DNA from: Brachionus manjavacas | Lineage: Eukaryota; Rotifera; Eurotatoria; Ploima; Brachionidae | Direction: 5' to 3' | Length of the DNA: 64,000 bases | Assembly: GCA_019054805.1 (NCBI GenBank) | Contig: JAHQIY010000011.1 | Location: 1,555,001-1,619,000 of the forward strand | Shown: piece after piece, positions 41,296-61,378 of the stretch | How the letters are laid out: every line of letters starts with the position of its first letter | Numbering within the stretch: position 1 is the stretch's first letter | Notes under the pieces: model-generated | The model's database searches: none | What the model was told of the DNA's origin: nothing | The model's input: the letters and a program-made list of their open reading frames with translations, nothing else | Program-made: the position numbers and the translations under genes

Positions 41296-44200
41296 TTAGA
41301 ATTCAGCTGCCAAGAAGCTGTTCAAGATTGAAGCAATTTTTGTGGCACTCTCTCCCATGAAAAAAGTTTTTTGTTCACCATCAATTAAGTGAACTTGTAG
41401 TCTGCCATTAACGTATTGTCTCAATCCTTGGAACAGTTTCTCGACCATTTCTTGATCAACTGTTTCTTGTTGACTGAAGATCATTTCCCATGGCTGGCAT
41501 TTGATTGTTGGAACAATGTTTGGTCTGACGACAACAATTCTGTTCAATCTCAACGGTTGGCATGGCACGTATTTGCATGAAATGATCATGTAGCGAACGT
41601 ACGAGCGAACAGCAGTTTCCAAATCGACCAAGTCGAAGCTAAATTGAGATTGTTCGACAACTTTGCCAACAACAAATTTGACACGTTCGTCAAAGGTTGG
41701 TATTTGAGCCAACATTTGGTAGAATTGTTCAACACTGAGTCTAACAGCTGGAGTGACAAATTGTTGGTAAAATCTGAACAAACCGTCAAATTCACAAACA
41801 CTCTCGACGCCAAACACAAAACCATTCAAAAATGTTTGACTCAAACCAGAGTCCAACAAGCACAATGAAACAACTTGTTGTGGTCGTCTCGAAGCCATTT
41901 CAAAAGCAACTGGAACTCCGAAAGTGTGGCCGACCAAGTGAACTCTTTCAACATGTGGAACCACTCTTTCGATTTGTTGCCAGTAGAATTGAGCCAATTG
42001 TTCAGCAGTTTCGAATCTCAAGCATTCTTGGGTGAATTGAAGACCGAACACTGGAACTTTGAGTTGTTGAGCCCATGTTCTAATGTAGCTGACTGATCCT
42101 TCGATTGGCATTACAACAAACAATGGCAATTGACCATTCACGCATTCAACATTGTTCAATTGTTCAACACACTTTTGTGCCATCAAAATCATTGGTCTTT
42201 CTTGGACTTGTCGTCTAACTTTGTTGACAAGCTCGCTGGTTTGTTCAACGCCAACAGTCTGTACTTCTGGCACTCTCAAAGTGAAAAATGGCATTTGTTG
42301 CAACTCAGCTGGCAATTGAATTCGCACAGATTGCACCAACATTTGTTCCAATCTGACAATCAATTTTTTGTACTCGACTGGAACTTGGACTTGTTCACCA
42401 GTGCCGATCAAAACCATCCAGTCGACGAGCAAAGCATGTCGACCACATTCACGTCTGCGTGACTCGCAAACTCCTTCGATCATCTTTTGGATTGCAGCAG
42501 TTTGAACACCAGTGGTCATTTGGCTTCTATTGAATACAACAAATAGGCCATAGTCTGGCATGATTGTTTGATTTCTGGTGTACTTGTCCAAATGGCTCAA
42601 CGATTTGACCGAAAAAGTCATTCCTTGTTGTGGTTGTTCAACAAATAGACCACCCAAGTGGAAAATGCTGCCAATTTTTGCCTCAAAGTGCGAAGTCATG
42701 CGGCAAGCTTGTCTAACCAAAAGCAAACATTCGGTCTCATCGTTCAAGTCCAATGTGGAAACACATTTGATTTGACAGCCAAATTCGTTTTGCAAATATC
42801 TCAACTTTTGGCTTTGTTGAGCATTCAAAACAACTGGCTCGACAGTGTTCACTCGTTGAGTGGTCAATACAAGGTATTTGACACCACAATATTGGACCAT
42901 CCATTGAGCTAATTCAAGACCAAAGTCACAGTCCAAAGCGCCAACGATCAAATGAGTTAATCTCGAATTTAAAACACATGTTTGACCAATGGTCCAGTTG
43001 TTGACAAAAGTTGGTCTCACTAGTGGCAATGTGGCTGCTGCTGTGGTTGATTTAACTTGGCTGATACCAAGTGATTGAGGTTGATTTTCAACAAGTGGAA
43101 AAGCGGTTGAGTTGATTGTTGGCAAATAAGTGTTGGCAATTGTCTCAGTGATGATGCTTGGGTTGAATTGATCTTTTGGCAAAACAACTGGAGTCATTTG
43201 AATGCCAGTTATTTCGATGCCACCACAAACAGTCTTGTTGGTGTACAAATCGTGCAATACAGGCAAAGTGACAAATTTTTCAGCTCTAATCAAATGTTCA
43301 ATTGGATTGATTCTAACTGATCGAATTCTAGTTGGCAACACGAGACCACCTTTTTGTTGGCACTCAATTGTTTGTTGTTTTTGTTGAGCCAAAAAGTTCA
43401 TGTGCAACATCGAGTCCAAGAAAGGTATCCATTTGCCAGTCCACAAAAGTTCGCCTTGAGTGCCAGTCACATTTGATCTAACAATTGGCTGAAATTCGCC
43501 AATCAATTCGTAGCCACATTGTTTGAACTGGGTGTAAATTTGTTCTTGTGGAACGACCAAATTGCATCTGACTTGGCTTTCCCATTGGCTTTTGAATGGA
43601 GTGACAAAGTCAAGACCAGCTGGTACATACACTTTTCCGTTGACAATCAAATTTTTGCCTTCGACTATTTCAAATAGACCAGTTGATGGCTGATAGTTGA
43701 TTTTGAATAGGACACGTTTGTTTTGTGGAACAATGACAACTTGTTGAGCTTGTTCACGCAAAACAGTGGCACGATGAATTTGAACATTTTCAAAGCAAAC
43801 TGGTGGCAATTGTTCCAATTCACATGCTTGGCCAAATACTGAGTCCAAACAGATTGGTCCGACAACAGTTTGTTGCTGTTGTCTAAATTGAGCCAAAGCT
43901 TTCCATACCAAGTACAAATAGCCAGTGGTTGGATACAAGACACGTCCGTTGATTTGATGGTTCAACAAATAGGACTCTTTTTCCAACAACGATTCAACAT
44001 CAACAGTAAATGTGACACTTTGTAAATCAGTGTTAATGCTCATTGAATTGATGGCATTCATGATCACTTGTTCAACACTGTTGCCAATTGCTTGTTTGCT
44101 CACAATGTATGACATTTGTTCTGGTTGAATGTTCCACTGAGACAAAAGGCTCAAAACTTTTTGTTCGACTGGCACTGGATAAACAGTTGGACACAATTTG

Positions 44201-45673
44201 AATGGTACAAACAATTTCACACAATCGAATTCAACACCTTCCAAATAGAGTCGGCCCAATTGGACCAAAAAGTGTTCCAAAACAAATTGACCACTAATGC
44301 CAAAAGTGGTTGGCATCAATGGAATAATGGTTGGCATGTTGGCAGTTGGAGTTTTCCAGCCAGTGCTGGTCATCATCAAAGTTGGTTGAATTAAACTTTT
44401 TTCAACAAAGTTTGCATCAAAGATCTTGGCGAAATTTCGATCAAAATGGCACTCTTGGGCACTTGCATCAAAGATTGCTGCAACATGACCGGTGTAGTGA
44501 ACAATTTGCACAAATAGTCAATGCTCATTGTTTGATAGAGACCAAGCGAATATTGTTCTGGTTGACAACAAGTCGAGATCCATTTGGACGATCTTGTTCT
44601 CGGAACAATGTTCAATGTTTCTAGACACTTTCTCAATAGTGGCAACATGTCGACCAAGTATTGAGTGTGAACGAGACCAAAGTTTTGAACAAAAACACCA
44701 GTTGAATTTTGACCAGCATTGATGGTTGTTGTTGTTGTTGTTGTTGCTGCTGCTGATGGAATTTCTATTTCTCTAACATAGATACCTTCCAATCTCAATT
44801 GTCTCAACAAGTCTCTGACCAATTGAACTGGACCAGTGATTACAACTTGGTCGACTGAATCAAAGCAAACTGGCACAACACCGCTTGGACATCTCGATCT
44901 CAATTGATCCCATGTCAAGTCGCCAACAACTGCCATCAACGATTGTGGCAAATTTTGAGCTTGTTGCAAACAATTGGCAAAGTAGTACGAGCACATCAAA
45001 GCTTGCTCGTGTGTCAAACATTGATCAATGTAGGCACACACCAATTCACCAGCTGATTGACCAATCATGCCATCGGCTCTGATGCCAATCAATCTCAAAC
45101 AGTCGACCAAAGCGATTTGAATCGCTGTCATGTAAACATATGATTCAACACCGGTCATCACATATTGTTTGTCTTGTTGTTCGCCAGTGATCAATTGCAT
45201 CAACGGGATTCCGTATGGTTTCAACAGCTCGCATGATCTCATCATCGAACATCGGAACGAGTCCAATTTCATCATTTCTCTGGCCATGCCACATCTCCAT
45301 TGTTCAACGCCCATACCAGACAACAAGAACCAAACTGGTCTTTGAACCAAATCATCGACTTGTTCGATTTGTCTCATTTTTGTTCACCATTGATCAAACA
45401 GAATCCTCTGAATGGGAACGATTTTGGACTGTAGGTAGAATGAGCGTTCAATAGAGACTGGACAGTCAAATCACTTGCGTTTTGTTCAACATAGTCCATT
45501 ACTTGTTCTAGAGTTTGTCTGCTCTTGGCATAAAATGGCAACACACGTGGCAATTTAACCAATTCGGACACAATTTCTGGTTGTTCCCAAATACCTTTGA
45601 TGGTTTGCTCTTCAACAACTTGGGTTGGGGCAGAACCTTGGATTTCAGTAGATAAAACTTTGTATGCGTACAT
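41296..45673 (-). CDS. FAS-derived protein 1 (AT-DH-KR-TE), two -1 frameshifts in A runs
   Basis: The protein is spread over three abutting minus-strand frames: 45673-45374, 45377-44391 and 44511-41296. Domain order follows animal fatty acid synthase. A short linker is followed by AT (FLLSGMG, nucleophile in GQSAGE, His in LVHTQYL), a dehydratase with HQINGRVLYP and its partner Asp in FLDSMLHMN, a degenerate ketoreductase (GALDCDFGLELAQWM), and a thioesterase-like domain. Ketosynthase, pseudo-methyltransferase, enoyl reductase and acyl carrier domains are absent. In the AT the malonyl-binding Arg position is Phe (SYYFANC). The ketoreductase lacks the Tyr-Gly-Phe-Ala-Asn segment. The thioesterase has GHTFG in place of GxSxG, and Gln replaces the His before KTFF. 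Each frame break is one A short relative to the open paralogue or the expected frame, so assembly error is plausible. Codon use is strongly biased (Leu mostly TTG, Gln CAA), unlike its AT-rich surroundings, suggesting high expression. Confidence 0.8.
44394..45608. repeat. Inverted repeat arm 1 (AT segment of FAS-like gene 1)
   Basis: Reverse complement of 46482-47706. I saw only a handful of substitutions across 1.2 kb, plus a 9-bp difference in an ACA repeat and a one-base difference in an A run. Outside these limits the two genes are clearly diverged. The spacer between arms is 873 bp. Confidence 0.9.
44725..44755 (-). repeat. (ACA)n microsatellite encoding poly-Thr in AT domain, copy 1
   Basis: Encodes Ala-Ala-Ala followed by seven Thr, just before the active-site His of the AT domain. 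The paralogue has ten Thr. Confidence 0.85.
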
Positions 45674-46332
45674 TTTTCAATAAATAACAATAAGTTAATA
45701 TAAAAATAACAATAGATTTGAGGGTCTAAAAGATAAAATTTATTAAAATTTTTCGGCTTATAAAAAAAGGTCTTTATTTAACTTAAAATTTCTATATTGA
45801 TAAATAAAAAAATGACAATCTATTTATATATGATTACAAATAAGCTTATCCATCTTTATTTTAATCATCTTACAGATCTTTCAGCTTTTCTCGAATTTTC
45901 GTTTTCATGAAAAGCATGAAATCATGATCTTTTATTCAAATCTATTCACTAGATACCAATTTTTTGAAATTTTTCAATCTTTCATTTTTTGCAAGTGTAT
46001 TCTGAATTTGATTTTTTTTATGCTTTCTTTTAAGCTTTTCTTTTCTTGACTTTTTCATTAATCCAGGGTACTAAATTTCTCGATTAATTTTTATGAAAAA
46101 AATCTAAAGCTTTTTTTTCTTTTGAAAATTTTTGTTTAAGCTCAGCTCAATTTCCCTTTTATTTTTTTTGTAAATTCCATTTGTTTTAATTAAATAAATA
46201 AATTAAATTTTATCTAGATCGATCATATTACCTTTAGAAAAAAGTTATATTTAATTTTTTACTGTTAAAAAATAAACAAAATTTAAAATTATTTGGTTAA
46301 AATTTTAACATAAATTTAATTTAGAAAAAAAA
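45674..46332. promoter_or_regulatory. Divergent intergenic region between the two FAS-like genes
   Basis: 659 bp of AT-rich DNA between the start codons of two divergent genes. It should contain both promoters or a shared bidirectional one. No TATA box can be picked out reliably in such AT-rich sequence. The gene-2 start at 46333 is preceded by agaaaaaaaa. Confidence 0.45.
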
Positions 46333-49300
46333 ATGCAAACTTTCAAAGATATCCCTTTGATTAACAGTGAAATAAAAGAAGCAAAAGACAACTTTTTAGA
46401 TGAAATTAAAAAAAGCGGCCAAATGTTCATTAATCGTAGAGAACAAAATGATTTTAAAATGGAATTGTTAATAGGAGGTAAGCAAACCATTAAAGGTATT
46501 TGGGAACAACCAGAAATTGTGTCCGAATTGGTTAAATTGCCACGTGTGTTGCCATTTTATGCCAAGAGCAGACAAACTCTAGAACAAGTAATGGACTATG
46601 TTGAACAAAACGCAAGTGATTTGACTGTCCAGTCTCTATTGAACGCTCATTCTACCTACAGTCCAAAATCGTTCCCATTCAGAGGATTCTGTTTGATCAA
46701 TGGTGAACAAAAAATGAGACAAATCGAACAAGTCGATGATTTGGTTCAAAGACCAGTTTGGTTCTTGTTGTCTGGTATGGGCGTTGAACAATGGAGATGT
46801 GGCATGGCCAGAGAAATGATGAAATTGGACTCGTTCCGATGTTCGATGATGAGATCATGCGAGCTGTTGAAACCATACGGAATCCCGTTGATGCAATTGA
46901 TCACTGGCGAACAACAAGACAAACAATATGTGATGACCGGTGTTGAATCATATGTTTACATGACAGCGATTCAAATCGCTTTGGTCGACTGTTTGAGATT
47001 GATTGGCATCAGAGCCGATGGCATGATTGGTCAATCAGCTGGTGAATTGGTGTGTGCCTACATTGATCAATGTTTGACACACGAGCAAGCTTTGATGTGC
47101 TCGTACTACTTTGCCAATTGTTTGCAACAAGCTCAAAATTTGCCACAATCGTTGATGGAAGTTGTTGGCGACTTGACATGGGATCAATTAAGATCGAGAT
47201 GTCCAAGCGGTGTTGTGCCAGTTTGCTTTGATTCAGTCGACCAAGTTGTAATCACTGGTCCAGTTCAATTGGTCAGAGACTTGTTGAGACAATTGAGATT
47301 GGAAGGTATCTATGTTAGAGAAATAGAAATTCCATCAGCAGCAGCAACAACAACAACAACAACAACAACAACAACCATCAATGCTGGTCAAAATTCAACT
47401 GGTGTTTTTGTTCAAAACTTTGGTCTCGTTCACACTCAATACTTGGTCGACATGTTGCCACTATTGAGAAAGTGTCTAGAAACATTGAACATTGTTCCGA
47501 GAACAAGATCGTCCAAATGGATCTCGACTTGTTGTCAACCAGAACAATATTCGCTTGGTCTCTATCAAACAATGAGCATTGACTATTTGTGCAAATTGTT
47601 CACTACACCGGTCATGTTGCAGCAATCTTTGATGCAAGTGCCCAAGAGTGCCATTTTGATCGAAATTTCGCCAAGATCTTTGATGCAAACTTTGTTGAAA
47701 AAAGTTCTCTTTAATCCAATCGATCTTTTGAGCAATTCAAATGTTCCATTTGTTCTTCCACTTACACCATTGTTGAATGTAAACGTTGATCCTCAACTTT
47801 TTGTTCATCATTTCCTCAACCAACTTGGTCGCTTGTATCTTCATGCTGTTGACTTTGATTCCGTTAAGTTATTTGTTCCATCCATCTTTGAACAATCAAT
47901 TTACCCTGTTCGAATTGATCAGTCTTGCATTGACTTTTTTTCCAATCTGGATATCTTTTTTGAGCCTTCAACCTTTGTTTTACCCATTTCATCCATTTCA
48001 CCCCATCCCCAATCTTATCCTGAGATCAAAAATGACCTTCAAAAAGAGTCCAGGACTACACTTGAATTTTTTCCATTTACTGAAATTCAAAACCAATACA
48101 ACAAATCTGGTTATATCATGGTTGACAAAGACCACAATGAAAATGATTTTATCTTCAATTCAATCCAACCCACAGCTGAATCCAAGTGTTTATTGAGTGA
48201 TTTTTTCGATTTCTACTTTTCCGAATGCAATCGTTACATGAAACATCTTGTGGGCAAAATTAGCAACCCTGAGCAAAATGTCACTATTGAACCAAAATCG
48301 TTGCCAGCAAGTCTTCAAGATCAACTTGAAAAAATCACCATTTATCAGCATACAACCAGTGATCAAGTTCAAATAAAATTGACTGATTTGTTTGAAGGTG
48401 GAAGCTTTTTGAAATTTTTAATCAACACCTCAGCTTGCTTGCCAAATGAGCCAGTTGATTTAATCAAAAAATTCAATCAAGCTTTCAGCCAAGACCTAGT
48501 TTTAGATCAACTGTCAAATTCTACACTCTACTTCAAAAATTGCTTCAATCTAATTGTAGAAAATTTGTCCGACAAGGATTTGATGCTCAAAATTGTGGAA
48601 ATATCACCCAGTGCATCCCAATTGTGTGCCAACAAATGCGTAGACATTCTTTCATCTTATGGCGATCTAAAGCACGAAATTGATTATCACTTTGTTCCAT
48701 TGAACTCAAGCCTGCAATATTTGGAAAATGAGTCAGGCAATTTTAGCATCCAAGACTGGAATTTAAAAATTGCAAACGGAAAATTTGAGTCCCAAATTCC
48801 GGACGAATTTTTTGGCCAGTTTGATCTAGTTTTGCTAAATGGCTGCCTGTCTCCAGCAATGGCCTTAGCTTCAGAGCTAGAAGTCAAAAATTGGCTCCAA
48901 GGTCCGATCGAAAAACTGCTAAAACCAAGCGGATTTGTCATGTTCAACGAGTTCACCTCCAATTTCGACTTTGTTCAGAATAGTCACAAATTAGAAATGT
49001 CAATAAATGGAAATAAGATTCAGAACACCAAATTGATCCAACAAATAAAACAATTGGAGTCATTTAGAAATCAGTCATCCCAAGACATTCAGATCAAGAT
49101 TGAACAGCAGATCAAGCAATTGGAAAAATTGCTAATGCAGGACGAATACTTAAATCTTAAACTACAAGATATGGAACTATGGAGGAGATTTTTGCAAGGC
49201 TTGACTTTGGTGCCAATTGGGTACAAGACGGATTCGGCCCTCAAGACCATTTTTATCTCCCGCAAATCACCAAAAGTCTTGAATGAAACAATTGTTTCTA

Positions 49301-51177
49301 TTGATGAATTTTTGATTAACCAGACTGAAACTGTGAGTTTTTTTGACAAAATTAGCCAAAGTCTCAGTGATGACAAAATAGATCGCCTATGGCTCCTGAA
49401 TGAAAAGCCAATTCGTCCTTTGAGTCTGCAAACAGCTTTGATAAGCGTGTTCGAAGGCTTGAGGTCTCTTCCGAACGGAGACAAGCTTAGGTGCCTGTTT
49501 TTACATGATGACCAGAAGATTGTCTTCGATTCGAAAGAGATCCAAAATTTTGGTCAATTGATGGAGCGCATCGGCAAAGCTGATTTGGTCATGAATTACA
49601 TTCAATCGGGCCAGTGGGGATCTGTGAGAATAGGTGAAGTTTTGGTGGAGTTTGAGCCAGAAGAGAGCGAGGAAAAAAAATGCCAGCAAATGTTCAAACA
49701 AAATGAAACCTATGTGATTGTGAATGGCATTGATTCAGAGTTTGGTTTGAATTTAATTCAGTGGATGGTCGAGTCAGGTGCCAAGTACTTGACAGCAACG
49801 ACCAAAAAATCCAATGTGTCTGAGTTCATGAATGTTGAGTTGTTCAAAAAATTAAACGATTTGCAGGACATTTACGGTGCCGAGATCAGACTGTCTTCGG
49901 TTTTGGACCTAAATGAGGAGAATGAGTGTCTTGGCTTGGTCAAGCAGAGTTGCAAGGCGTCGCCTGAAGGCAAAATTGGCGGAATATTTCACTTGGGAAA
50001 TTTGTGTGACCAAAGTGATGTTCAATCGATGTTCAACTTGGACAGATTGACTCGATCGGGATCCATAATGCCCGATACAGGCTACTTTGTTCTCTTCACC
50101 ACTGGTCCCAATGAAGTTGTGGAAAAACTTTGTAATTTAAGATATTCGGAAAGCTCTAAACAAGCGTTGTGCATTGATTTTAATGTTTTGTTAAATGGCT
50201 TGGGTCAAGATAAATCAGAAGTCAGAAATAAAAGATGCATTGATTGTTTGGAGGATTTGCTGAGTGATTCATGCAATAAAGAGGCCAAAGAAGTTAAGGT
50301 CGAAGAGAGAGTAGCCAAAAAGCAGGTCACTTTGATGCCCAAGATGCTGATTGAGGAATTAAATGATGTTGAGTTGAGTGACGCGGCCAAATCGCCCATA
50401 TTCGTAGTGCATCCAATTGAGGGTCATGTGAACATGTTGAGAAACTGGGCTGAAAAATTCCATGTGCCAGTCTATGGCCTACAGTACACCGAGGAATGCT
50501 TAAAATTTCAAACCATCGAACAATTGAGTGAATTCTATTGGCAACAAATTGAAAAATTTGTTCCGCATGTAGAAAAAGTTCACTTGGTAGGTCACACATT
50601 TGGCGATTCAGTTGCTTTTGAAATGGCCTCTCAACGTCCACAGCAAACTTTGTCTTTGGCTCTGCTGGACTCCGGATACACAAAAACCTTTTTAAATTCA
50701 GCCATAGTTGGTGTCGAGAGCAATTTTGAAGTGGAAACTTTGGTTAAATTCTACCAGCAATTTGTTGTGTCCAATGCTAGATTAAACTTTGACCAGTTTT
50801 ATGAGGAATTGATCAAAATATCGGCCTTTAATGAACGTGTCAAGTTCGTAGTTGGCAAAATTGTTGAACAATCCCAATTTTTGTTCGATCTAAATGACAT
50901 TGAGACTGCTCTTCGATCATTTGTTCTCAAATCATCCATGGCTTTGAAGTATGTGCCAACGCAAGCATTGATTTTGAACAAGATTTTAGTAGTGAGACCT
51001 TATTTGATAAGTGGTGTTCAGCAAAGCTTTAGGAATATTTTAAATCTATATCATTATTTTGGCGGCGAAGTTTCTTTAAAGACAGTTGACTCTACTGAAA
51101 AAACATTTTTAATTGGGGAAAATGCCGAAATTGCTGCCAATCTGGTCAGAGAATATATCGGACTAGAAAAATTTTAG
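46333..51177 (+). CDS. FAS-derived protein 2 (AT-psiMT-structural KR-KR-TE), intact 1614 aa
   Basis: One uninterrupted frame of 1614 residues. Residues 1-50 are unique to this copy. About 51-455 are the linker and AT, nearly identical to gene 1, with the nucleophile in GQSAGE at about 233-238 and a ten-Thr run near 338-347. The dehydratase is missing. About 750-880 match the pseudo-methyltransferase of animal FAS (LMLKIVEISPSASQLC, FDLVLLNGCLSPAM, LKPSGFVMFNEF). About 980-1090 match the structural ketoreductase half (LRCLFLHDD, KADLVMNYIQSGQWG). The ketoreductase begins near 1125 (VNGIDSEFGLNLIQWM) without the catalytic Tyr segment. The thioesterase-like end starts near 1355 (VVHPIEGHVNML), with GHTFG at about 1420-1424 and Glu where the catalytic His should be. 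No ketosynthase, enoyl reductase or carrier domain is present. Human FAS is about 2500 residues. The codon bias of gene 1 is seen only in the AT part; the rest is more mixed. A GGTAAG at 46477 could be a splice donor but lies in open frame. Confidence 0.85.
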   Translation: MQTFKDIPLINSEIKEAKDNFLDEIKKSGQMFINRREQNDFKMELLIGGKQTIKGIWEQPEIVSELVKLPRVLPFYAKSRQTLEQVMDYVEQNASDLTVQSLLNAHSTYSPKSFPFRGFCLINGEQKMRQIEQVDDLVQRPVWFLLSGMGVEQWRCGMAREMMKLDSFRCSMMRSCELLKPYGIPLMQLITGEQQDKQYVMTGVESYVYMTAIQIALVDCLRLIGIRADGMIGQSAGELVCAYIDQCLTHEQALMCSYYFANCLQQAQNLPQSLMEVVGDLTWDQLRSRCPSGVVPVCFDSVDQVVITGPVQLVRDLLRQLRLEGIYVREIEIPSAAATTTTTTTTTTINAGQNSTGVFVQNFGLVHTQYLVDMLPLLRKCLETLNIVPRTRSSKWISTCCQPEQYSLGLYQTMSIDYLCKLFTTPVMLQQSLMQVPKSAILIEISPRSLMQTLLKKVLFNPIDLLSNSNVPFVLPLTPLLNVNVDPQLFVHHFLNQLGRLYLHAVDFDSVKLFVPSIFEQSIYPVRIDQSCIDFFSNLDIFFEPSTFVLPISSISPHPQSYPEIKNDLQKESRTTLEFFPFTEIQNQYNKSGYIMVDKDHNENDFIFNSIQPTAESKCLLSDFFDFYFSECNRYMKHLVGKISNPEQNVTIEPKSLPASLQDQLEKITIYQHTTSDQVQIKLTDLFEGGSFLKFLINTSACLPNEPVDLIKKFNQAFSQDLVLDQLSNSTLYFKNCFNLIVENLSDKDLMLKIVEISPSASQLCANKCVDILSSYGDLKHEIDYHFVPLNSSLQYLENESGNFSIQDWNLKIANGKFESQIPDEFFGQFDLVLLNGCLSPAMALASELEVKNWLQGPIEKLLKPSGFVMFNEFTSNFDFVQNSHKLEMSINGNKIQNTKLIQQIKQLESFRNQSSQDIQIKIEQQIKQLEKLLMQDEYLNLKLQDMELWRRFLQGLTLVPIGYKTDSALKTIFISRKSPKVLNETIVSIDEFLINQTETVSFFDKISQSLSDDKIDRLWLLNEKPIRPLSLQTALISVFEGLRSLPNGDKLRCLFLHDDQKIVFDSKEIQNFGQLMERIGKADLVMNYIQSGQWGSVRIGEVLVEFEPEESEEKKCQQMFKQNETYVIVNGIDSEFGLNLIQWMVESGAKYLTATTKKSNVSEFMNVELFKKLNDLQDIYGAEIRLSSVLDLNEENECLGLVKQSCKASPEGKIGGIFHLGNLCDQSDVQSMFNLDRLTRSGSIMPDTGYFVLFTTGPNEVVEKLCNLRYSESSKQALCIDFNVLLNGLGQDKSEVRNKRCIDCLEDLLSDSCNKEAKEVKVEERVAKKQVTLMPKMLIEELNDVELSDAAKSPIFVVHPIEGHVNMLRNWAEKFHVPVYGLQYTEECLKFQTIEQLSEFYWQQIEKFVPHVEKVHLVGHTFGDSVAFEMASQRPQQTLSLALLDSGYTKTFLNSAIVGVESNFEVETLVKFYQQFVVSNARLNFDQFYEELIKISAFNERVKFVVGKIVEQSQFLFDLNDIETALRSFVLKSSMALKYVPTQALILNKILVVRPYLISGVQQSFRNILNLYHYFGGEVSLKTVDSTEKTFLIGENAEIAANLVREYIGLEKF
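46482..47706. repeat. Inverted repeat arm 2 (AT segment of FAS-like gene 2)
   Basis: Partner of 44394-45608. Homology begins at gcaaacca and ends in the A run before gttctc; both ends are abrupt. The protein changes I see are Ala to Glu in MxVVGDLTW and the Thr-run length. Confidence 0.9.
47335..47376 (+). repeat. (ACA)n microsatellite encoding poly-Thr in AT domain, copy 2
   Basis: Encodes Ala-Ala-Ala followed by ten Thr. In frame, three codons longer than in the paralogue. Confidence 0.85.
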
Positions 51178-51222: not shown

Positions 51223-51291
51223 GTTTTATTAATTAAATTAAGTGTTTGATTTCTTAAATGATGATTGAAAATAATTTAAGTATTAATGCAG

Positions 51292-51364
51292 GCCCGGTTA
51301 GCTCAGTCGGTAGAGCGTGAGACTTTTAATCTCAAGGCCAAGGGTTCGAGCCCCTTATCGGGCG
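51292..51364 (+). tRNA. tRNA-Lys(UUU)
   Basis: 73 nt, no intron. Acceptor GCCCGGT pairs with ATCGGGC, followed by G73. A-box region TAGCTCAGTCGG and B-box GGTTCGAGCCC match RNA polymerase III internal promoters. Anticodon loop CTTTTAA on stem TGAGA/TCTCA gives anticodon TTT. A T-run terminator follows. Confidence 0.95.
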
Positions 51365-51431
51365 AATTTTTTCAAAAATATTTTAATTTTTTTTTCAATA
51401 CGATTTTGATTTTTTTGACAGAAAAAAAATT

Positions 51432-51504
51432 CGCCCGATAAGGGGCTCGAACCCTTGGCCTTGAGATTAAAAGTCTCACGCTCTACCGACTGAGCTAACC
51501 GGGC
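51432..51504 (-). tRNA. tRNA-Lys(UUU)
   Basis: Identical to the copy at 51292 but on the minus strand, facing it. Its T-run terminator lies just beyond 51432. Confidence 0.95.
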
Positions 51505-51515
51505 CTGCATTAATA

Positions 51516-52098
51516 AGCATTAAGATAATTCTTTTTTAGATAGTTTTATTTTAGAAGTCACAAGTCCAAGTCAAAGTTATGACTTTTTTTTCATGAATTT
51601 TATGCAAGTTTGATTTCATGTTGGGTATTTTTTTAATAAGGGTCTTCAACACTTGAATACAAGATTTTTTTTAATGATTAATCAATACTAAAAATACATG
51701 AAGACTTAACAAAATATTTTTATTTAAAACTAAATTCAACAGTGCATATCAAAATATACACAATAAAAAAAGAGCAAAAATCGTAATTTTATTAATAAAA
51801 ATACTACGACAACAAAAAATTTTTAGTTAATAAATTTACATAAACTGTTGTTTTTGGCATTTAATTATTTTAATAAGACATTAAGAAGATAAATATTTTA
51901 CTAATTTATTTTATAATTATTTTTTATTCTATCTTTAATATTATTCACCTCTTTTTAAGCTAAATTGTCTAATTGCAAAACCCTGCATAAAAGATAAAAA
52001 ATAATTTTAGTGTAATTAAACATGAATTATGATTGTTTTTCATTCATGTTTTTTTGGATTCGGAATTTATTTTTATCTTCAAAATAGGAAAAAAAATT
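51516..52098. other. AT-rich intergenic DNA, nothing recognised
   Basis: No coding frame, repeat or RNA gene is supported between the tRNA pair and the next tRNA. Confidence 0.6.
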
Positions 52099-52171
52099 CG
52101 CCCGATAAGGGGCTCGAACCCTTGGCCTTGAGATTAAAAGTCTCACGCTCTACCGACTGAGCTAACCGGGC
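52099..52171 (-). tRNA. tRNA-Lys(UUU)
   Basis: Same 73-nt sequence as the other copies, with different upstream flank (ttacattttt). The T-run terminator lies at the left. All stems pair. Confidence 0.95.
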
Positions 52172-52670
52172 TTACATTTTTGAATATCTAATAATTTATT
52201 TATTTTAATGAACACGTTTAAGCCGACGTAAAAAAAAGTAAAAAGAAAAAAAGAAAATGCAATAATAAGACAAAGTTTTAGTGTTAATTTTAATTAATTA
52301 TTTTTTTTGAAAATATTTATTTAATAATTTCATTTCTTATTTTTTGGATAAAATATTTTAACTGATTTTTTTATTAAAAATTAAATTAAATTTTTAATTT
52401 TGTCTGAGTCGTTCAATTTCTAAAGGCCATAATTTAGTCTCTGTGGAAAAATTTTCTTAGGTCAAACTCTATTTCTAATGGAATCAACAACAACCAAAAT
52501 GGGTTCGTAAATAATTTTTTGGCTTCATCATGGAATTAAATAAAATAAAAATTAAATTAAATTAAATTAAAATAAAAATATAAATTTGTAATTTATATAA
52601 TCTTTATATTAAATTAATGAGATTGATTTGATTTTAAATAATAATTTTTATTAATTAAACTTTATGCAAG
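52172..52670. other. AT-rich intergenic DNA, nothing recognised
   Basis: Only simple AT repeats such as aaattaaattaaatt near 52550-52572 are visible. Confidence 0.6.
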
Positions 52671-52743
52671 GCCCGGTTAGCTCAGTCGGTAGAGCGTGAG
52701 ACTTTTAATCTCAAGGCCAAGGGTTCGAGCCCCTTATCGCGCG
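52671..52743 (+). tRNA. tRNA-Lys(UUU) with acceptor-stem mismatch, possible pseudogene
   Basis: Differs from the other five copies by one base: the 3' acceptor strand reads ATCGCGC in place of ATCGGGC, turning the C3-G70 pair into C-C. Anticodon TTT, A and B boxes and the T-run terminator are intact. A single mismatch in the acceptor stem may lower processing or charging; it could also be a sequencing error. Confidence 0.85.
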
Positions 52744-52855
52744 ATTTTTTTTCTATTTCCACCATAAAATAAAACTCATTTATTCATTAAAAAAAATTTA
52801 GTCTCTAATGAGGTAAAATGTAAAAAAAAACAAAATAAAAATCTAAAAAATTCTT

Positions 52856-54470
52856 CTATCGAGAAACATAATTGTTATTTAAATTGTCCCTGTTGTAAAA
52901 GCCGGCGCTGCTTTGCTTCGATCTGATAGAATCAAAATAACTATCAAAATTGGCTCTTGAGTCCTCCTTGGAAAAATTGCTATCTTGGTACTGATTCATG
53001 TCTCGAATCGAATAGCCACGCTGCGACTGAATATCAATGATGGATGCAAAGCTCTGCGACGGCGAATAATTGCCTTGGTCGTACTCAACTTGTGTATTGG
53101 TTCTACTCAGTGTGTTTCTATCCAAGCCTTGGTCATTGGCATCCTCCTCTGGCTGATACAGCTCCACATTGACTCCATTGGTGCCATTCACAATATTGTT
53201 ACTTTCAAATGTGTTGTACATTGGCTCACCAAGAACCAACTGGTTGTCTATAAAAGTGGCATGTGAACAGGTGAGAACATGTGCTGGAAATCTTTTGTTG
53301 TCATCTACTTCTGAAGCGTTCTTGTGCGCATTCAAATGAGCATTCAATGCCGCTGTATACGCATCAATGGGACCAAAATCAATCTCAACAAGTTCGTCAC
53401 TAAAAACGCTGGGATCCAACTGGTCATCTTTCTCTTCTTCAGACTGTGTTGGCGTCTGATCTTTCATTGCTTCTTGGTAGATTTTTTCCAATTCTTCTGC
53501 GCTCAATTGACCAGCGTTTCTAATTACATTATCACCTGTCAAATAGCCCACAAATTTAACTTGACCAATGGAAAATTTGTGTCCATACTCTTTAATGGTT
53601 TGTGAATCGGCATCATTGAAATTTACGGGCGTAGTGCTTCCATGTGTATCGACAGGCTCTTCTGTCTGCACAGTTGAGTCCAATTGTTCGTGCTGAGCCA
53701 TCAGAGCCGAAAAACTCGGCTCTGCCTGAAGCTTCTTGGTCTCAACTTGTAGACTTTGACTTTGTGCTTGACCTGAAATGGTATTGGTCATTTGTTGGTG
53801 GCCGTATGGCGACTGTTCCGCTTGTCTTGATACCCTGTGCTGAAATTGTTCTTCCATTATTTGGCGTTGACGCTGCAGCAGCTTTTCCCTGAGAATTTCG
53901 TGTTCTCTAAGCTCAGCAATTCGTTGGGCTTGTAGTCGAGCCTCGAGTTCACCCTCTTGGAAATTTTCCGAGCTTTTGGTGTCGACTTTTTTGGGCGGCG
54001 GCTGAAGAAGGCGCCGTCCCGATTGTGACTTTTGAATCTGCATGTCCACACTTGAAATTGACTTGGCCGAATTGGTGATCTTTTGACGAAGAGAGGTCGG
54101 CGTGTCTCCTCGGGCAGCATCGGCCTCAATCGAGGCCAGTTCCTCCTCCCGTTGCTTGAGCTCGGCCTGGGCTTTGGCAAAAACTTGGGCCTGGGCTTCG
54201 GCCAGCGCCATCGCCTGCATCTTGGCCTCCACTTGAGCCTGATAGAGAGCCTGGGATGATGTTTGGGCTTGGTTGGTGCCGCTGGACACAGTTCTGCGAG
54301 CTGCAGAGTTCAACAGTTCTCTCGAATCAACATACTTGCCCGATTCCAGCAATTGAAGAGCCACTTGTTCCGGAATTTCGCTGCCATTCTCGTCCACATA
54401 GATGATGTTCTCGCGGCCCGGCTCAATTGGGTTGCCGTCCTCGTCCACAAACAAAACATCCGGAACATGA
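52856..54470 (-). CDS. Unrecognised Ala/Gln-rich coiled-coil protein, last exon
   Basis: The minus-strand frame ends at a TAG at 52856 and is open upstream past 54454 to a likely splice acceptor (ttctttaag) at 54471-54472. No in-frame ATG exists in this exon, so at least one upstream exon is expected. The start of the exon has two similar acidic segments, FVDEDGNPIEPG and YVDENGSEIPEQ. Next come an Ala/Gln/Glu-rich helix (LAEAQAQVFAKAQAELKQREEE) and a second charged helix (AELREHEILREKLLQRQRQI), both likely coiled coil. A short conserved-looking globular patch follows (GQVKFVGYLTGDNVIRNAG, SAEELEKIYQEA), then a low-complexity Asn/Ser/Asp tail. No signal peptide or membrane segment. I do not recognise the family; a cytoskeletal or scaffold role is only a guess. 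GC content and coding bias are clearly higher than the flanks, supporting a real gene. Confidence 0.75.
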
Positions 54471-56906
54471 CTTAAAGAATAAAGATGGCTTTACACCAGG
54501 CTTTTTGGCTAGATGGCGGATAAAAATTAAAATTACTTTTGACTATTAAGCTGCATTGTGTAATTAAGAGAAAATTGTTTTTATTTTTTTGTTTTAAAAA
54601 TTTTTGTGGCAACAACGCGGCCCTAGTAAATTTTTGAAATGAAATCTTGTCAGAGCGAAATTTTATGGTCTTTGCTAGACAAAGAAAAATAGATATTTTT
54701 TTGTATTATTTTTTTGTATTTAGGAAAATGAGGACATTTAATTTTGGAGAAATTCTTTTATTTAAAATTTCAATTTTTGTGTTCATTAAAGCCTAAATTT
54801 TTCAAATTTTCTCTTCTAATGACTTTAATTTGATTGATTGAAGCTAAAAAAAACTATTTGGAAAATATATTTTTTTAATGGTCATGTCTTGCGGCCTCGA
54901 GAGTCAACCCATTATCGGTCCATCTGTGGCAAATAACTCGAGGTAGATAGACAGAAAATATTTTTTCTCCAAAAGGTGTTGCTAAATAGAAATGAAAACA
55001 AATTCCGATCTTTGCACGCTCCACTGAGCCAATGGTGTTTATGGATTTTGTTGCTTTTGTCGAATTTTTCCTTTCATTTCTAGATAATTAAAATAGATAA
55101 AATACAAAATAGCTTTTAGTGTTGATGGTTATTTTTCGCAATTCCACACAAATCATTGTCTAATCTCTAGTTCAAATCGGTCACTAGGTTGGCGTTTGCT
55201 ATAAATATCAATCATATGGCAATTACTTTACATATTTTTCAAATACTTTAAAACTAAATGGAGAATTTTACTTTGACAAACGAAACAAATTCCAAACAAA
55301 TACTTGATTTTCAATAATTTATTTTTGTCATTTGATACTAGAGTGAGCAAAACTATCAAACGTAGTGCTCATCTTGGTCATGCTTGAATGATTAATTTTG
55401 TTTGCTAACTACCATGCTAAATGCAAGTATTATAACTCTTTTTGTTTAATATTTAAATAAATATGAGAAGATGCTCAGCTAAATTTTTAGATTGAAAAAA
55501 AATATATTTTTAAAAATTTTTCTAGATGCCAATTCGAACAAGAATGGTTCTGTTAGAAGCCCCTATTTTGGAGAATAATGATGGTTATGAAGTAAACTCT
55601 AGGAGTTTATTCACATTCTCTTAGATAGTGGCCTTTTACGGAAAACAAACGGCTTTTTTTAAATTTTATAAAACTTTTTTTTTATTAATAAAAATAAATA
55701 TTGTGAAAATTAATATTTTTTTAATTCCCTAATTCAACATAATATCTATGATACAAAATATTATATTTTATCATTTTCACTAAAATCTGTCATCAATGCT
55801 TTGTGAATTTAAATAAAATTATTTGAAAATAATTAGCGCTTGATCATTTTTGCATTCATTTAATAAAAAGAGTTTATATTATTATTAAATTTTATTTAAT
55901 AACCAAGCATACACAAAAATGGATATGAAATTTTTCTTAAAATAAAAAATTTATTTGGAAAATTAAAGAAAAATTTCTCAACTGTTTTAGTTTATTTTAA
56001 AATGAATTTAAAATTTAAAAACCAGGATTAACTCATTAGTATATCGATTTGGAATTTCAATCCAATTTTTTTTCAAATGATTTAAAAGCAATTTGTACTA
56101 AATCAAATTTTTAATGAGATAATTTAAATTGTATTTCAGAAAGTTCTCTTTAGAAAATAAAAAATTAATATTAAATTTTTGAAGGTTACTTATACTTACG
56201 ATCATTTGATGAATTTTTTTCAAAAATTAAATTTGCTCTACTTATTCGAAATTGGTAAGCAAACATTTAGGATGTAATTAAAAAAAATACATTTGACATT
56301 TTTAAATTAATTCCTAGCAAATATCTGATATTAGATGCTAAACCACTTGTTTAATCAAGCATTTGTAGTACCGACTCAAAGTGATCAGTTTGCCGGAAAG
56401 CAAATAAATTCAGATGGTCCGTGAGCTAAAAAAATCCAAAAATTTATTGATGCATCTTCAAAATTAGCTTCTTTTTCTAATTGATTATTTAAAAAAGCGT
56501 TCTTGTCACTTACCTGCCATCAAAAAAATAAAAAGCTAAACTTAAATTGACTTTATTTTAAAACCTATAATTTTATGCATTCGATTAATCTGTGCCAACA
56601 TTATGATTCGTATTTTTAGTTCATAAATTTGTTCAAGCGTGACCACAAAGCTCTAAACTAAACCAAATAATCAAAAAGTATTTCCAAAATATTTATTTAT
56701 TTTATCCATTCTGTGGATTTAATTATATATTTTAAAAGTCATTGATTTTTTTAAATTTTAATTGAGATAAATTTAAACATTAGTCATTGCTCCTTGCCAA
56801 CTCACCTAGTCAAAAATTTAAAAAATTTCTAGGCTTTTATTTTTAGCTATTTTAAAACAAAATATATTGCTGCGCTTGGTTCTATTTTTCATAAACATAA
56901 AAAAAG
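54471..56906. other. Intergenic and probable 5' region of the coiled-coil gene
   Basis: 2.4 kb of AT-rich DNA between two divergent genes. Slightly GC-richer patches at 54885-54950 and 55010-55070 may be untranslated first exons of the minus-strand gene; no coding exon can be supported. No RNA gene seen. Confidence 0.45.
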
Positions 56907-59900
56907 ATGTCTTTTCTAAACAATGATGATTCTAGCTATACAGTAAAAGCAATGTATTTGGGCTCGGAGCCGATGGGTGAGCTGCTCGAAGGTGAGAATG
57001 GTTCGGATGTGATTCAAGTGCCGCTCAAACGCACCATTTTGCGCACAAATTCAATCGGAAAAGAAGTTGATCTGTCGGTGGCCAGTGACTCATTGATGGT
57101 TGATTTTCTCAAAAACAATGCAGCCCCAATGAAGCTGCCAATTGAGCTTCTTGCCTACTGCGGAGCTCTGCGTCAATTGCCGCCCAACGAAATCATCACT
57201 AGAGAATTCGAGACCTTGGACAAGTCACCGCCAATGTCAAATGATCTCAATTCACCACCACTTTTTGTGACAATATTTCGGTGTCTTGAAAGCGAAAACA
57301 CGCTCTATTGCCATTCGTTTGTGATCAGGAAGGACGAAGAAGCAATGGAACTTGTCAAACTAGTTATGGAAATGTATTACAACTATGTCAAACTGAATGA
57401 ATCAATCAATTCAAATGACGAGAATGACTTGTTCAACAAAAGTGATGGGAGCAATGAATTGAATTTTAGTGATCTGAACCAGAAAAGATTTTCCCAAAGC
57501 AATGAAAAAGCAACAACCAATTTGGACAATTTGTTAAATTTGTACAATAATCAATCGGCAGAAGCCTCTCAAGGTATTTTGTCCAGAAATTTTTATTTTA
57601 ACTTAAATATTATCAGTTTTGTTTAGAGAAATCAATTGTTTCAGCAAGAGATATAATTAAAGAAGCGCTTAATTCGAGTGATTATAAGCTGGAGAAAAAT
57701 GGCGATGTACCATTGAATGAAGACGACAGCCCGATTGTGATCAAAAAAGAAAATAACGAAGAAATAGTTTACAAGCAAAATGTGTTTATCAGATGGTTGC
57801 AGCCTCCTACTCCGCCACCACCAGCTCCAATAATAAGTAATTTCTATTTTTGTTTATATAAGCCCGGTTAGCTCAGTCGGTAGAGCGTGAGACTTTTAAT
57901 CTCAAGGCCAAGGGTTCGAGCCCCTTATCGGGCGAATTTTTTAGCCTAAATTAAATGTTGAATTTTATTCCCAAAACGCAAAATTTTAACCAAATTAGAA
58001 ACATCTAATATCAAAATTAAAATTATAATTTTATTGAAAAAATTATCTTTTCGAATAATGACTAAATTGGAAAAAAGATATTATGATGTAACTCACTCAA
58101 GTCTTGCCAGCAAGCAAAATAGTTAACTCAAATTTGTTTTAAGGCTTTTAAAAAAATAATTAAATTTTTTAATTTTCTCATGTGTTAAACCTAAAGAGTG
58201 GGTGTCTAAAAATTAAGTGGAAATTAATTTTATATCTAATTTTTATTATTATAAAAAAATGTATTACAATAAATATTCTTTGAAATTTTTTATCTAAACA
58301 TTGGTCGGCGCACTTAGCTCTTTGCTTTTAAAACCAAATACTATTTTTTGATTTAAAAAAAAATTTAATAATAATTATTTTTTACAAATTTAATTAGTAA
58401 TAAATATGTTTCCTGATTAAAGCTGAGTGTTTTGTGGTAAGACTCGAAAGTGCAGTGGCCGGCGAGACAAAAATTGGTTATCGATACCAATTTTTTAAGT
58501 AATTTTAATGTATTCTTTCCGATAAGTATTTTTTAGTTTTGAAAGCCTTAGAAATTATAATCTTAGAAAATTTCATTTTTTTTTGTTTATGTATTTTTTT
58601 AATTTTTAAAAAAAAATGTTAAAAAAATGTCATTTTAAAGAAAAAAAAATGACAAAATTTTGAATAAACTTTTTCGTAATCACCTATATTGGGTCTATTC
58701 AGTAATTTGATATTTTTTATTTTAAATATATAAAAAAGAGAAAAAGTATTATTATGATGATTTTATAATTTTAGGAATAGAATACAAATTATTCTTGAAT
58801 GTTTAGTTAGATTTTTAGTTAAATTTTAGTTTGATAAATGCAATACTCCAACATATTCTCATTAATTTTAATCAAAATTATTTTATGTTACATTGATGAA
58901 TTAAGTAACCTTGTTAAACACTCAGTAATTAAAAAAATTTCTCAGTTTTTTTAATTCTGCTATAAAAAAAAGTCAATTTAAAAAATGTGAAGATTTTTTA
59001 CGAACAATTTTTAATTATAAAAAAAAAGGAAAAAGAAAAAAAATCGATGTTGTAAAATTTTTTACAAAAGAATAGAATATTTTTTTCTATAATTTCAAAC
59101 TTAAGTCTGTGAATGCAACACGTTTCAACCCTCATGGTAGTATTTTTTAACCAATATCTGTTAAAATTCAGCAAATTTAGCAGAACTTAAAAGTCAATAT
59201 ATTCGATGAATGTTGGACTAATTTGCATTTATTAATTTTGAACTTATTGAAAATAAAGGTATTTCTTATCATCATTTTTACTGTATTTTACAAAACCAAA
59301 AATTATTTCATTTCAATTGAAAAAATTAAACAAGTGTAAATTATCTGACTTTACTAGAGCGTCTTGTAACTCTATCAAAAATAGTAACATTTTTTATTTT
59401 TAATATACAAAAAAGAGTAAAAATTTCATTATTCAAATATTTTTTGTCCAGTCAGACTTCCAAAGTCGTTCTCTAGGTTTTCGAATCAAAACAAAAAAAG
59501 TTTAACAATAGCTTTATTGAAACAAAAGGTCCTAATCCAAAAACTTAACCAAAATTAATAACTCTTAAAAAAATAATAATACAACTAAAACCTATTTCTA
59601 TCAAACACTACAAAATATAAATGTAAATATTAGTTTCTAATTGAATAAAACAACTTCCTTGGGTGGTCTGCACAAGCAAACATTTTTTTTAAACAAAATT
59701 AAGATGAAAAATTAAAAAATCATTATTGTACTTAAAATTTGAATTGTTAAATTAAGAAAATTTTTTAAGAAAAATCTTTTCTAAATCTTATTTTTCCAAA
59801 ATCACAAACCCTAATTGAACATATTAATTTCGGGTCTAATGATTCAATTAATGTTAATGAAAACTGGCCAACTTCCGCAAATTTAAAAGGGATTTAAAAA

Positions 59901-61161
59901 AAAATAATATCTGACATTCTTCCTAAATTACTAAATTTAAAGAAAAAAATAAGTCAAATTCAATCTTATTCAAACAAGAACTAAATCCAATGAACGATTG
60001 TCAAGAATTATTTTTCATGTATTCTTTTTCAAACGACGAGCTTATTCAAATGAAAATTCACTTTTAAATATAATTTTAAAAAATGTCCGTAAGAATATCA
60101 ATGCCAAAAGGTACTAAGTTACTTATGGCTTATGCATTTCTTATTTTAGTATTGAAATCTCATATGATCAATTTGAGCTTTCAATTTATTGAATGATTCT
60201 ACAACCCTGTTCATTAAATCTTTGCCAATATTTAAAAAATTTTCAAAAATTTATGGAATTTTTTTTAAATTTTCAAGTACGAGAAGTCCAAGAAAAAACG
60301 CCAGAATCATTGCCCCCATTAGTGATTTATAAACAAGCACCAAGAGCTGCAACTCCACCACCCTTGATTATCCGTGAGCGTCCTCCAACCCCAATCGAAG
60401 TGCCCAAAGAACCACTGGTAATAGAGAAACGAGTTTCGGTTCCCGAACCGAATCGCAAAGTTATCATTGAGCATCTTCCTCCTCCTCCACCTAAACCCCG
60501 TGACATAATTTTAGAAAAATGGTTGCCTCGGGAGCCAGCCCCTCGTTCAGTTTATGTACAAAAATCCAAAGAGGTTTGCTACCAAAAACCTGTGTATGAA
60601 GTATTCGAAAATAAAAGTTCAAAGCATGGTCATCGTGCCAATTCGATGGAAAAAGAGGCTTCAAAAAAGTCTGTTACCCGGCGATCTAACTCAAATGAGC
60701 CGGTTTACCACTCAAATCAATCAAATGCAGTCCATTCAAACAAAAATAGCAAGCATACCAAAATAGCTGGTTATCGTATCATTAGACAAATTATTCCCGG
60801 TCCCAACTCGACCTCAAATGATATTGAAAAAGCACTGGCCAGGTCACAAAAAGTTAGCTGTACTGTATACTCGAGCCATAATCAAGCCTATTCACCATTC
60901 TATGAAAATTCAAGATATCAGTCCTGCTATTCAAATTGTGCACAAAAGACACCTGTTTGTGTTAGTTCTTATACAAATAAATATTCACCGAATATTTACA
61001 CACCACCATCAAGCTGCTATTCGGTGCTAAATTACAGTTCTCATCCAAAAGCACGCCAAGTCTCAGTTCAACAATGCTATATGCCTCAAAAAAAAAATTC
61101 TAATAAAATGGCATATAAGTGTAAGGAAATATATCGAAGTTCATCTTTCGATAGAATTTAG
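56907..61161 (+). CDS. Three-exon gene: PTB-like domain plus proline-rich repeat protein
   Basis: Exons 56907-57573, 57627-57836 and 60278-61161 join in frame (1761 nt, 586 aa) with GT-AG introns of 53 bp and 2441 bp. Residues about 10-165 (YTVKAMYLGSEPMG ... LYCHSFVIRKDEEAMELVKLVM) resemble a phosphotyrosine-binding (PTB/PID) fold, with the typical YLG strand near the start and a CHSF strand and C-terminal helix at the end. An acidic Asn/Ser-rich linker follows. Proline-rich modules of the type RWLQPPTPPPPAP, PPPLIIRERPPTP and IIEHLPPPPPKP, then ILEKWLP, span the exon 2-3 boundary. The last 200 residues are Ser/Tyr/Cys-rich and basic. Membrane segments are absent. It is probably an adaptor or cytoskeleton-associated protein; the PTB call is moderate. 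A tRNA-Lys gene lies in intron 2. Confidence 0.7.
57837..60277 (+). other. Intron 2 of the PTB-like gene, hosting a tRNA-Lys
   Basis: Donor GTAATT at 57837 and acceptor tttcaag ending at 60277; the flanking codons join as Ile-Ile-Ile-Arg-Glu-Val, continuing the proline-rich repeat pattern. The tRNA starts 25 bp after the donor. The rest (57935-60277) is AT-rich with no coding frame seen. Confidence 0.7.
57862..57934 (+). tRNA. tRNA-Lys(UUU), intronic
   Basis: Identical 73-nt gene lying in intron 2 of the PTB-like gene on the same strand, followed by a T run. Internal promoters allow its own transcription. Confidence 0.95.
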
Positions 61162-61182
61162 AAATTGTAATTAGTTTTTATT

Positions 61183-61195
61183 TCTTTAATAAAAT
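61183..61195 (+). terminator. Polyadenylation signal of the PTB-like gene
   Basis: AATAAAA follows the stop codon by about 25 bp, with a second AATAAA near 61200. Confidence 0.5.
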
Positions 61196-61305
61196 TTGAC
61201 AATAAAAAGTTCTTAAATTTATTTTAAATAATTTACTTTTTAATGAATTCAAAAATCATTTTAAAGATTGGGATAAATTTTATTTTAATTTTGAAAATAT
61301 TTAGC

Positions 61306-61378
61306 GCCCGGTTAGCTCAGTCGGTAGAGCGTGAGACTTTTAATCTCAAGGCCAAGGGTTCGAGCCCCTTATCGGGCG
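61306..61378 (+). tRNA. tRNA-Lys(UUU)
   Basis: Identical 73-nt gene downstream of the PTB-like gene, same strand, with a T-run terminator directly after. Confidence 0.95.

Follow-up and report, generated by a model that had tools for sequence, protein, structure and literature searches.

A fatty acid synthase-derived gene family lacking ketosynthase, enoyl reductase and carrier domains in the rotifer Brachionus manjavacas, with a possible non-lipogenic role

We analysed 64,000 nucleotides of the Brachionus manjavacas genome (contig JAHQIY010000011.1, hereafter C11; C11:1555001-1619000). This whole stretch is called the window, and positions refer to it unless a contig or locus is named. Two genes derived from animal fatty acid synthase (FAS) stand head to head in it. 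In the following list of features, KS is the ketosynthase, MAT the acyltransferase, DH the dehydratase, ER the enoyl reductase, ACP the acyl carrier protein and TE the thioesterase.

41296-45673, minus strand: gene 1 (linker-MAT-DH-KR'-TE'), FAS-derived, broken by two 1-nt deletions
41308-42162, minus strand: TE' of gene 1, Ser replaced by Thr and His by Gln
42394-42966, minus strand: KR' of gene 1, NADPH motif without two of its three glycines, catalytic Ser and Tyr lost
43192-43986, minus strand: DH of gene 1, His/Gly/Pro and Asp kept, residues taken from the identical stretch of gene 3
44391-45383, minus strand: second frame of gene 1, with the MAT domain
44394-44403, minus strand: second frameshift of gene 1, A6, as in gene 2, against A7 in gene 3; situated at one edge of the inverted repeat
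45374-45673, minus strand: first frame of gene 1, N-terminus (MYAYK..) and KS-MAT linker, PF16197 match under its cut-off
45377-45382, minus strand: first frameshift of gene 1, A5 against A6 in genes 2 and 3
44394-45609: left arm of the linker+MAT inverted repeat
45674-46332: gap of 659 bp between the head-to-head genes 1 and 2, into which a KS-coding exon would not fit
46481-47706: right arm of this linker+MAT repeat, 98.9% identical to the left one, with gene-1-type codon usage within gene 2
46333-51177, plus strand: gene 2 (linker-MAT-DH remnant-psiME-psiKR-KR'-TE'), a single ORF of 1614 codons, as initially annotated
46759-47712, plus strand: MAT of gene 2, Ser and His kept, Arg lost
47917-48393, plus strand: stretch at the DH position of gene 2, unmatched to FAS DH in BLASTP, with other residues where His, Gly and Asp would stand
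48394-49629, plus strand: psi-ME and psi-KR region of gene 2, 23% identical to residues 1189-1521 of the genome's own FAS (E 6e-14), Pfam FAS_pseudo-KR
49708-50190, plus strand: KR' of gene 2, Pfam KR slightly under its cut-off, without the glycine motif or the catalytic Ser and Tyr
50239-51147, plus strand: TE' of gene 2, Ser replaced by Thr and His by Glu

Gene 1 is not a single ORF but is spread over three frames, all on the minus strand (45676-45374, 45383-44391 and 44517-41296), with an ATG at about 45673, and both 1-nt deletions fall within A-runs. A near-identical intact copy, gene 3, forms an open frame of 1488 aa at C11:1544881-1549347, 5.7-10.1 kb to the left of the window. Genes 1 and 3 lie within an inverted duplication of 5,075 bp at 99.5% identity. 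From about codon 53 of gene 3 onwards, their coding sequences differ by three synonymous substitutions and one 6-base repeat indel, besides two single-base deletions, both in gene 1, and the final 3.1 kb are identical. Since the opening 50 codons or so differ, genes 1 and 3 are probably older copies that were recently homogenised. A search of the 114 Mb genome with the gene 2 protein produced 13 matches: nine on C11 (one to gene 2 itself, five to gene 1, three to gene 3) and four on contig C6, which correspond to the canonical FAS.

Several other features were observed around these genes. Positions 1-40500 of the window hold nested direct and inverted duplications, many of them 95-99.8% identical, with reverse-transcriptase and endonuclease ORFs. 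Six tRNA-Lys (TTT) genes lie at 51292-61379, two of them in a 100% identical inverted pair (51281-51515). Near gene 3, 12.6-14.0 kb to the left of the window, a Gln/Glu-rich ORF of 457 aa (L026:1036-2409, that is C11:1541036-1542409) looks coiled-coil-like by eye, has no Pfam match and is present as a single copy in the genome. Seven homologues of it were found, both named ones from Brachionus. Its codon usage is eEF1A-like (CAI 0.769, ENC 34.2), and it is not among the 25 comparison ORFs used below. It displayed no significant similarity to the Gln-rich inserts of P0032 and P0033, two relatives described below.

The products of genes 1 and 2 match animal FAS both in Pfam and in sequence comparison to solved FAS structures. 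The genome also encodes an intact canonical FAS of 2515 aa (L009:1864-9411), located on another contig than genes 1-3, which retains the catalytic sites tested. Pfam recognised Acyl_transf_1 and Thioesterase in both genes, together with PKS_DH_N in the pieces of gene 1 and with FAS_pseudo-KR and a sub-threshold KR in gene 2; Vitellogenin_N (PF01347) gave no match in the Pfam scan of the gene products. Mapped by BLASTP onto the canonical FAS, gene 1 covers residues 421-1156, 1906-2078 and 2180-2512, and gene 2 residues 421-843, 1189-1521, 1863-2074 and 2204-2510. Both alignments start at residue 421, past KS, and on this map KS, ER, the C-terminus of KR and ACP are missing from both genes, in agreement with the initial annotation as to FAS ancestry and the absence of KS, ER and ACP. 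ER gave no Pfam match in either gene, residues 1522-1862 of FAS being unmatched by both; at ACP the map has a gap in both genes, and no PP-binding Pfam match was obtained. KS was not found in genes 1-3. We rejected the possibility that it is hidden upstream or in an adjacent gene, given the 659 bp gap and a KS search of the genome in which none of the 11 matches lies on C11. A FAS split over genes 1 and 2 was rejected as well, KS, ER and ACP being in neither. Elsewhere in the genome, giant KS-containing open frames of 2384 to 4867 aa, polyketide-synthase-like, are clustered at C1:6716098-6759691.

The two proteins had been credited with one architecture. This stands for the common loss of KS, ER and ACP, but not beyond it: gene 2 retains psi-ME/psi-KR and has no recognisable DH domain, whereas gene 1 gave no significant psi-ME/psi-KR match in the comparison with the genome's canonical FAS. 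A stretch of gene 1 aligning with FAS 1355-1477 (E 0.17, not significant) may be a psi-ME/psi-KR remnant. As read from these alignments, genes 1 and 2 have some of their domain losses in common and complement each other in the rest (psi-ME/psi-KR versus DH).

Catalytic residues were tabulated over an alignment of 12 relatives, MAT counts being restricted to sequences covering the site; we take the residues tallied in MAT, DH, KR and TE to have the catalytic roles assigned to them. The TE Ser is Thr in 10 and Ala in 2 of the 12 relatives and the His is replaced in all 12, with the Asp retained throughout (12/12). The KR Tyr is missing in 12/12 and the KR Ser replaced in 11/12, a Ser aligning in P0033, while the NADPH motif has its middle glycine replaced in every relative and its first glycine present in 7/12. 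The ER motif is missing in 12/12, and the ER and ACP regions are missing in 8/8 aligned Brachionus-type relatives; the S letters of P0007 and P0006 in the ACP-serine column are chance matches, neither protein having a PP-binding domain. The MAT Ser is retained in 8/8 and the MAT His in 9/9 of the sequences covering these sites. The MAT Arg, presumably involved in malonyl binding, is lost in all six Brachionus-type proteins that cover it and present in P0032 and P0033. The DH residues (HxxxGxxxxP plus Asp) are intact in 7/7 gene-1-type proteins and in both wider relatives, P0032 and P0033; in the gene 2 type the site is intact in none of three, Pro alone being kept in 3/3. Judged from these residues and domains, fatty acid synthesis by a gene 1-, 2- or 3-type protein alone is excluded, and a gene 1/3-type protein may be capable of dehydratase activity or acyl transfer. 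The term multi-domain pseudo-enzyme, applied initially, is too strong for the gene 1 type, in which the MAT Ser/His and the DH His/Gly/Pro/Asp are intact.

The description of genes 1 and 2 as divergent was borne out for KR'-TE', which are 43% identical, but not for the linker+MAT inverted repeat with its 98.9%. The MAT block of gene 2 has an ENC of 37.4 and a CAI of 0.759, against 50.6 and 0.607 in the remainder of the gene. Within gene 2, gene-1-type codon usage is confined to this block, which therefore appears to have moved from gene 1/3 into gene 2, and we infer that the near-identity of linker+MAT results from gene conversion. At all three substitutions that distinguish genes 1 and 3 within the shared block, gene 1 is identical to gene 2, and the second deletion, at the repeat edge, leaves gene 1 with the A6 run of gene 2. 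It looks as if the frame of gene 1 had been broken by a later transfer from gene 2. A second such case may involve TE, where P0005 (B. calyciflorus, gene 2 type) and P0006 (gene 1 type) are 90-100% identical over a block of about 160 aligned residues, compared with 42-62% in the flanking windows. In part of this block P0005 and gene 2 likewise reach 78-90% identity, so that the core of the block is well conserved anyway.

Among named sequences, those nearest to gene 2 come from Brachionus plicatilis and B. calyciflorus. P0004 (B. plicatilis) aligns with 74% of gene 2 at 90% identity and P0005 with 73% at 53%; both are N-truncated members of the gene 2 type. Complete gene-1-type relatives of 1460-1596 aa are P0006, P0007, P0008 and P0031; P0009 and P0010 are of the same type and N-truncated. 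Orthologues with the same missing domains, which had been expected of a distinct family, were thus found: KS is absent by Pfam from the four N-terminally complete ones (P0006, P0007, P0008, P0031), and ER and ACP regions from all eight aligned. Two metagenome proteins, P0032 (2046 aa) and P0033 (2068 aa), contain a degenerate KS with Cys changed to Tyr or Phe and both His replaced, and Gln-rich inserts about 200 and 400 residues long. P0032 represents 35 member sequences from 12 contigs. These searches were based on shared words with a limited number of candidates scored, so that bdelloid members could be missed.

In a MAT+DH+TE tree (FastTree), the Brachionus-type proteins and P0032/P0033 formed a clade with support 0.999, sister to the genome's own canonical FAS with 0.998. 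Single-domain trees of MAT, DH and TE supported the clade with 0.98, 0.869 and 0.98, and the sisterhood with FAS with 0.837, 0.907 and 1.0. On these trees, the family of genes 1-3 is of common descent with FAS. The gene 1 and gene 2 types split clearly in the TE tree only; the joint tree nests the gene 2 type inside the gene 1 type, which we put down to conversion and to missing data. DH is 76% identical between gene 3 and both P0007 and P0008, other domains 58-69%. In the P0032/P0033 comparison MAT and TE are at least as well conserved as DH, and in that of gene 3 with P0009 the same holds for KR and TE.

The initial annotation had pointed to a strong codon bias in gene 1, and this bias is real. 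With five actins and eEF1A as reference, the CAI was 0.712 for gene 3 and at most 0.530 in 25/25 other ORFs scored, these being frames of 150 codons or more that lie in the window or in one of 12 fetched loci, no formal random sample and of unchecked gene status. When the reference was reduced to eEF1A and one actin, gene 3 reached 0.605, inside the actin range of 0.478-0.749, to which one actin of the reference itself contributes, and vitellogenin exons scored 0.378 and 0.446. Four of six actin frames scored lower than gene 3. Neither the canonical FAS nor a polyketide synthase (PKS) comes near the codon bias of genes 1/3. This bias, an indirect proxy, suggests high expression of the gene family. 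Transcripts making up more than 1% of B. plicatilis ESTs from starved animals do not include FAS in excerpts of PMC1925144, which argues against very high expression in those animals, as far as these excerpts go. Four matches to elongation factors, lying in both orientations and with frames of 470 aa, occur at C1:9235150-9478317, and the one that was read is eEF1A. Six vitellogenin_N copies form an array in both orientations at C3:6690831-6765469, with one weak match at C16:1875205. This array contrasts with the B. plicatilis ESTs, reported in excerpts of PMC2667189 as without vitellogenin transcripts.

We followed the fate of the gene 3 frame under simulated neutral substitution, with indels ignored and all change placed on one branch. 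At 94, 90, 82 and 67% protein identity the frame remained open in 0/30 runs per level, and every run accumulated at least three premature stops. For seven of seven metagenome-derived (jgi/lgn) relatives (P0006-P0009 and P0031-P0033), the contig exceeds the CDS by 57-538 nt, a surplus from which alone we would conclude that these contigs fit transcripts; P0009 is N-truncated and its contig may merely be cut. Outside the clade, the FAS-like P0051 and P0052 have a similarly short surplus (369 and 421 nt), and other jgi/lgn FAS-like hits, P0048 and P0011, one of 1.5-1.6 kb. Gln makes up 4-6% of three FAS proteins but 9-14% of gene 1, P0007, P0008 and P0033, with intermediate values in P0032 (7.2%) and gene 2 (7.0%). 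No hydrophobic signal peptide was seen on inspection by eye.

Strong codon bias, loss of the synthesis chemistry and retention across species suggest that the FAS derivative has a new, abundant role. We consider it rather likely that it is an old, selected, highly expressed and non-lipogenic protein, abundant and probably cytosolic, which may serve as bulk or scaffold. A rotifer FAS would have duplicated before the splits among the relatives compared. The duplicate would have been free to diverge because the canonical FAS keeps the sites tested, and would have lost condensation (KS), reduction (KR, ER), carrier (ACP) and release (TE), giving an abundant, probably cytosolic product incapable of fatty acid synthesis. 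A bulk or scaffold protein retaining the FAS fold ranks first among the roles considered, its specific job being of low certainty. DH is the sole FAS dimer contact left when KS and ER are gone. It would hold such a protein together, and the MAT Ser-His site may still bind acyl groups. Since DH and MAT residues are conserved, some chemistry may remain, which speaks against a purely structural role. Genes 1/3 and gene 2 may act as two specialised subunits because their module losses are complementary (psi-ME/psi-KR versus DH). Gene conversion, in a neighbourhood rich in inverted repeats, would keep shared blocks alike, in MAT in the present species and in TE between the B. calyciflorus gene 2 type and a gene 1 type. 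The fuller proposal, that a monogonont FAS became a top-abundance, cytosolic, non-lipogenic structural or provisioning protein with two partly converted subunit types showing complementary loss, is offered tentatively.

Retained active sites invite the alternative that only KS, KR and TE are dead and that the gene 3 protein is a residual dehydratase, with or without acyltransferase, that would work in trans, its partner being acyl-CoA or else a carrier domain belonging to the canonical FAS or to polyketide synthases of this genome. The DH His/Gly/Pro and Asp (9/9), the MAT Ser (8/8) and His (9/9), the top conservation of DH between gene 3 and P0007 or P0008, and the large KS-containing frames clustered on C1 would all be consistent with it. 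We nevertheless regard it as unlikely: the MAT Arg is lost in 6/6 Brachionus-type proteins, DH is lost in gene 2 and is not the best conserved domain in P0032/P0033 nor in gene 3/P0009, and a codon bias far over that of canonical FAS and PKS would be unusual in an accessory enzyme. By analogy with dipteran yolk proteins, which arose from lipases, the product could instead be an inert, Gln- and Val-rich cytosolic protein passed from the vitellarium to the egg. Very strong codon bias, high Gln in gene 1, P0007, P0008 and P0033 and the signal peptide not seen by eye would fit such egg provisioning or storage, as would the B. plicatilis ESTs without vitellogenin transcripts, which in the excerpts of Denekamp 2009 (PMC2667189) leave the yolk protein open. 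However, the six vitellogenin_N copies on C3 make a conventional yolk precursor likely, and a missing vitellogenin was dropped as support once they were found; P0032 and gene 2 are less Gln-rich, and conserved DH/MAT sites are unexpected in mere storage. We hold this role to be quite improbable.

Errors of assembly could also be invoked, the MAT inverted repeat or the frameshifts of gene 1 being consensus errors. The deletions do lie in A-runs, in or bordering a near-identical repeat, a setting that allows misplacement of reads, and gene 1 follows gene 2 at 3/3 of its substitutions against gene 3 in the shared block. Yet P0004 and P0010, both from B. plicatilis, overlap in some 30 MAT residues and there agree with each other at two positions at which the copies of the present genome differ from them, P0005 and P0006 are near-identical in another block, TE, and frames of 2384-4867 aa are unbroken elsewhere in the genome. 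Such errors are very improbable, and genes 2 and 3 are independent of them. Least probable of all are decaying FAS pseudogenes whose frames are open by chance or recent origin. The two frame-breaking deletions and dead KR and TE residues would suit decay in gene 1, to which it applies at most, but gene 2 has an open frame of 1614 codons and gene 3 one of 1488, four more complete orthologues exist, and no simulated frame stayed open at any of the four levels. A retained, non-lipogenic FAS derivative is the reading that we prefer.

The closest known system is animal type I FASN, represented here by the genome's own canonical copy, with which genes 1-3 share order and homology in linker, MAT, DH, psi-ME/psi-KR, KR and TE, and to which they are sister in the trees. 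They differ from it in having no KS, ER or ACP, in the loss of KR and TE residues and of the MAT Arg, and in the stronger codon bias of genes 1/3. P0032 and P0033 resemble the Brachionus type in belonging to the same clade, in missing ER, ACP and the KR Tyr, in their dead TE and in their kept MAT and DH sites, but have a degenerate KS, the MAT Arg and Gln-rich inserts. Dipteran yolk proteins are derived from lipases. They would offer an analogous event, from an enzyme family to an abundant non-enzymatic protein, and differ in the parent enzyme and in that the rotifer genome holds a vitellogenin array. Such lipase-derived proteins are mentioned in excerpts of PMC2667189. According to excerpts of PMC9235097, Aedes aegypti AaFAS6 and AaFAS-like are likewise FAS paralogue models with partial domains; unlike genes 1-3, in which KS, ER and ACP are what is lacking, they are two neighbouring models of which one has the KS portion and the other ER, KR, ACP and TE, and the authors allow for assembly error or duplication. 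As in the initial annotation, which knew of no described family, we came upon no account of a rotifer FAS relative without KS in the open-licence PMC literature, and excerpts of PMC10821554, PMC3701536, PMC11954553, PMC5336670, PMC3253786 and PMC12837320 contain nothing relevant on a FAS-derived family. A B. calyciflorus FASN transcript of 981 aa (PMC6768451) and FAS transcripts of diapausing eggs (PMC7721884) could, as given in excerpts of these papers, be canonical or of the derivative. CRISPR editing works in Brachionus manjavacas, according to excerpts of PMC10395877.

If the proposed reading is true, a giant metabolic multienzyme has been repurposed into an abundant non-metabolic protein, and an intermediate is preserved, with a dead KS in P0032 and P0033 and KS gone in the Brachionus type. 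The database names of P0004, "fatty acid synthase isoform X1" and "oleoyl-[acyl-carrier-protein] hydrolase", do not fit its active sites. As a consequence of such misnaming, changes in rotifer "FASN" transcripts may not always mean lipogenesis.
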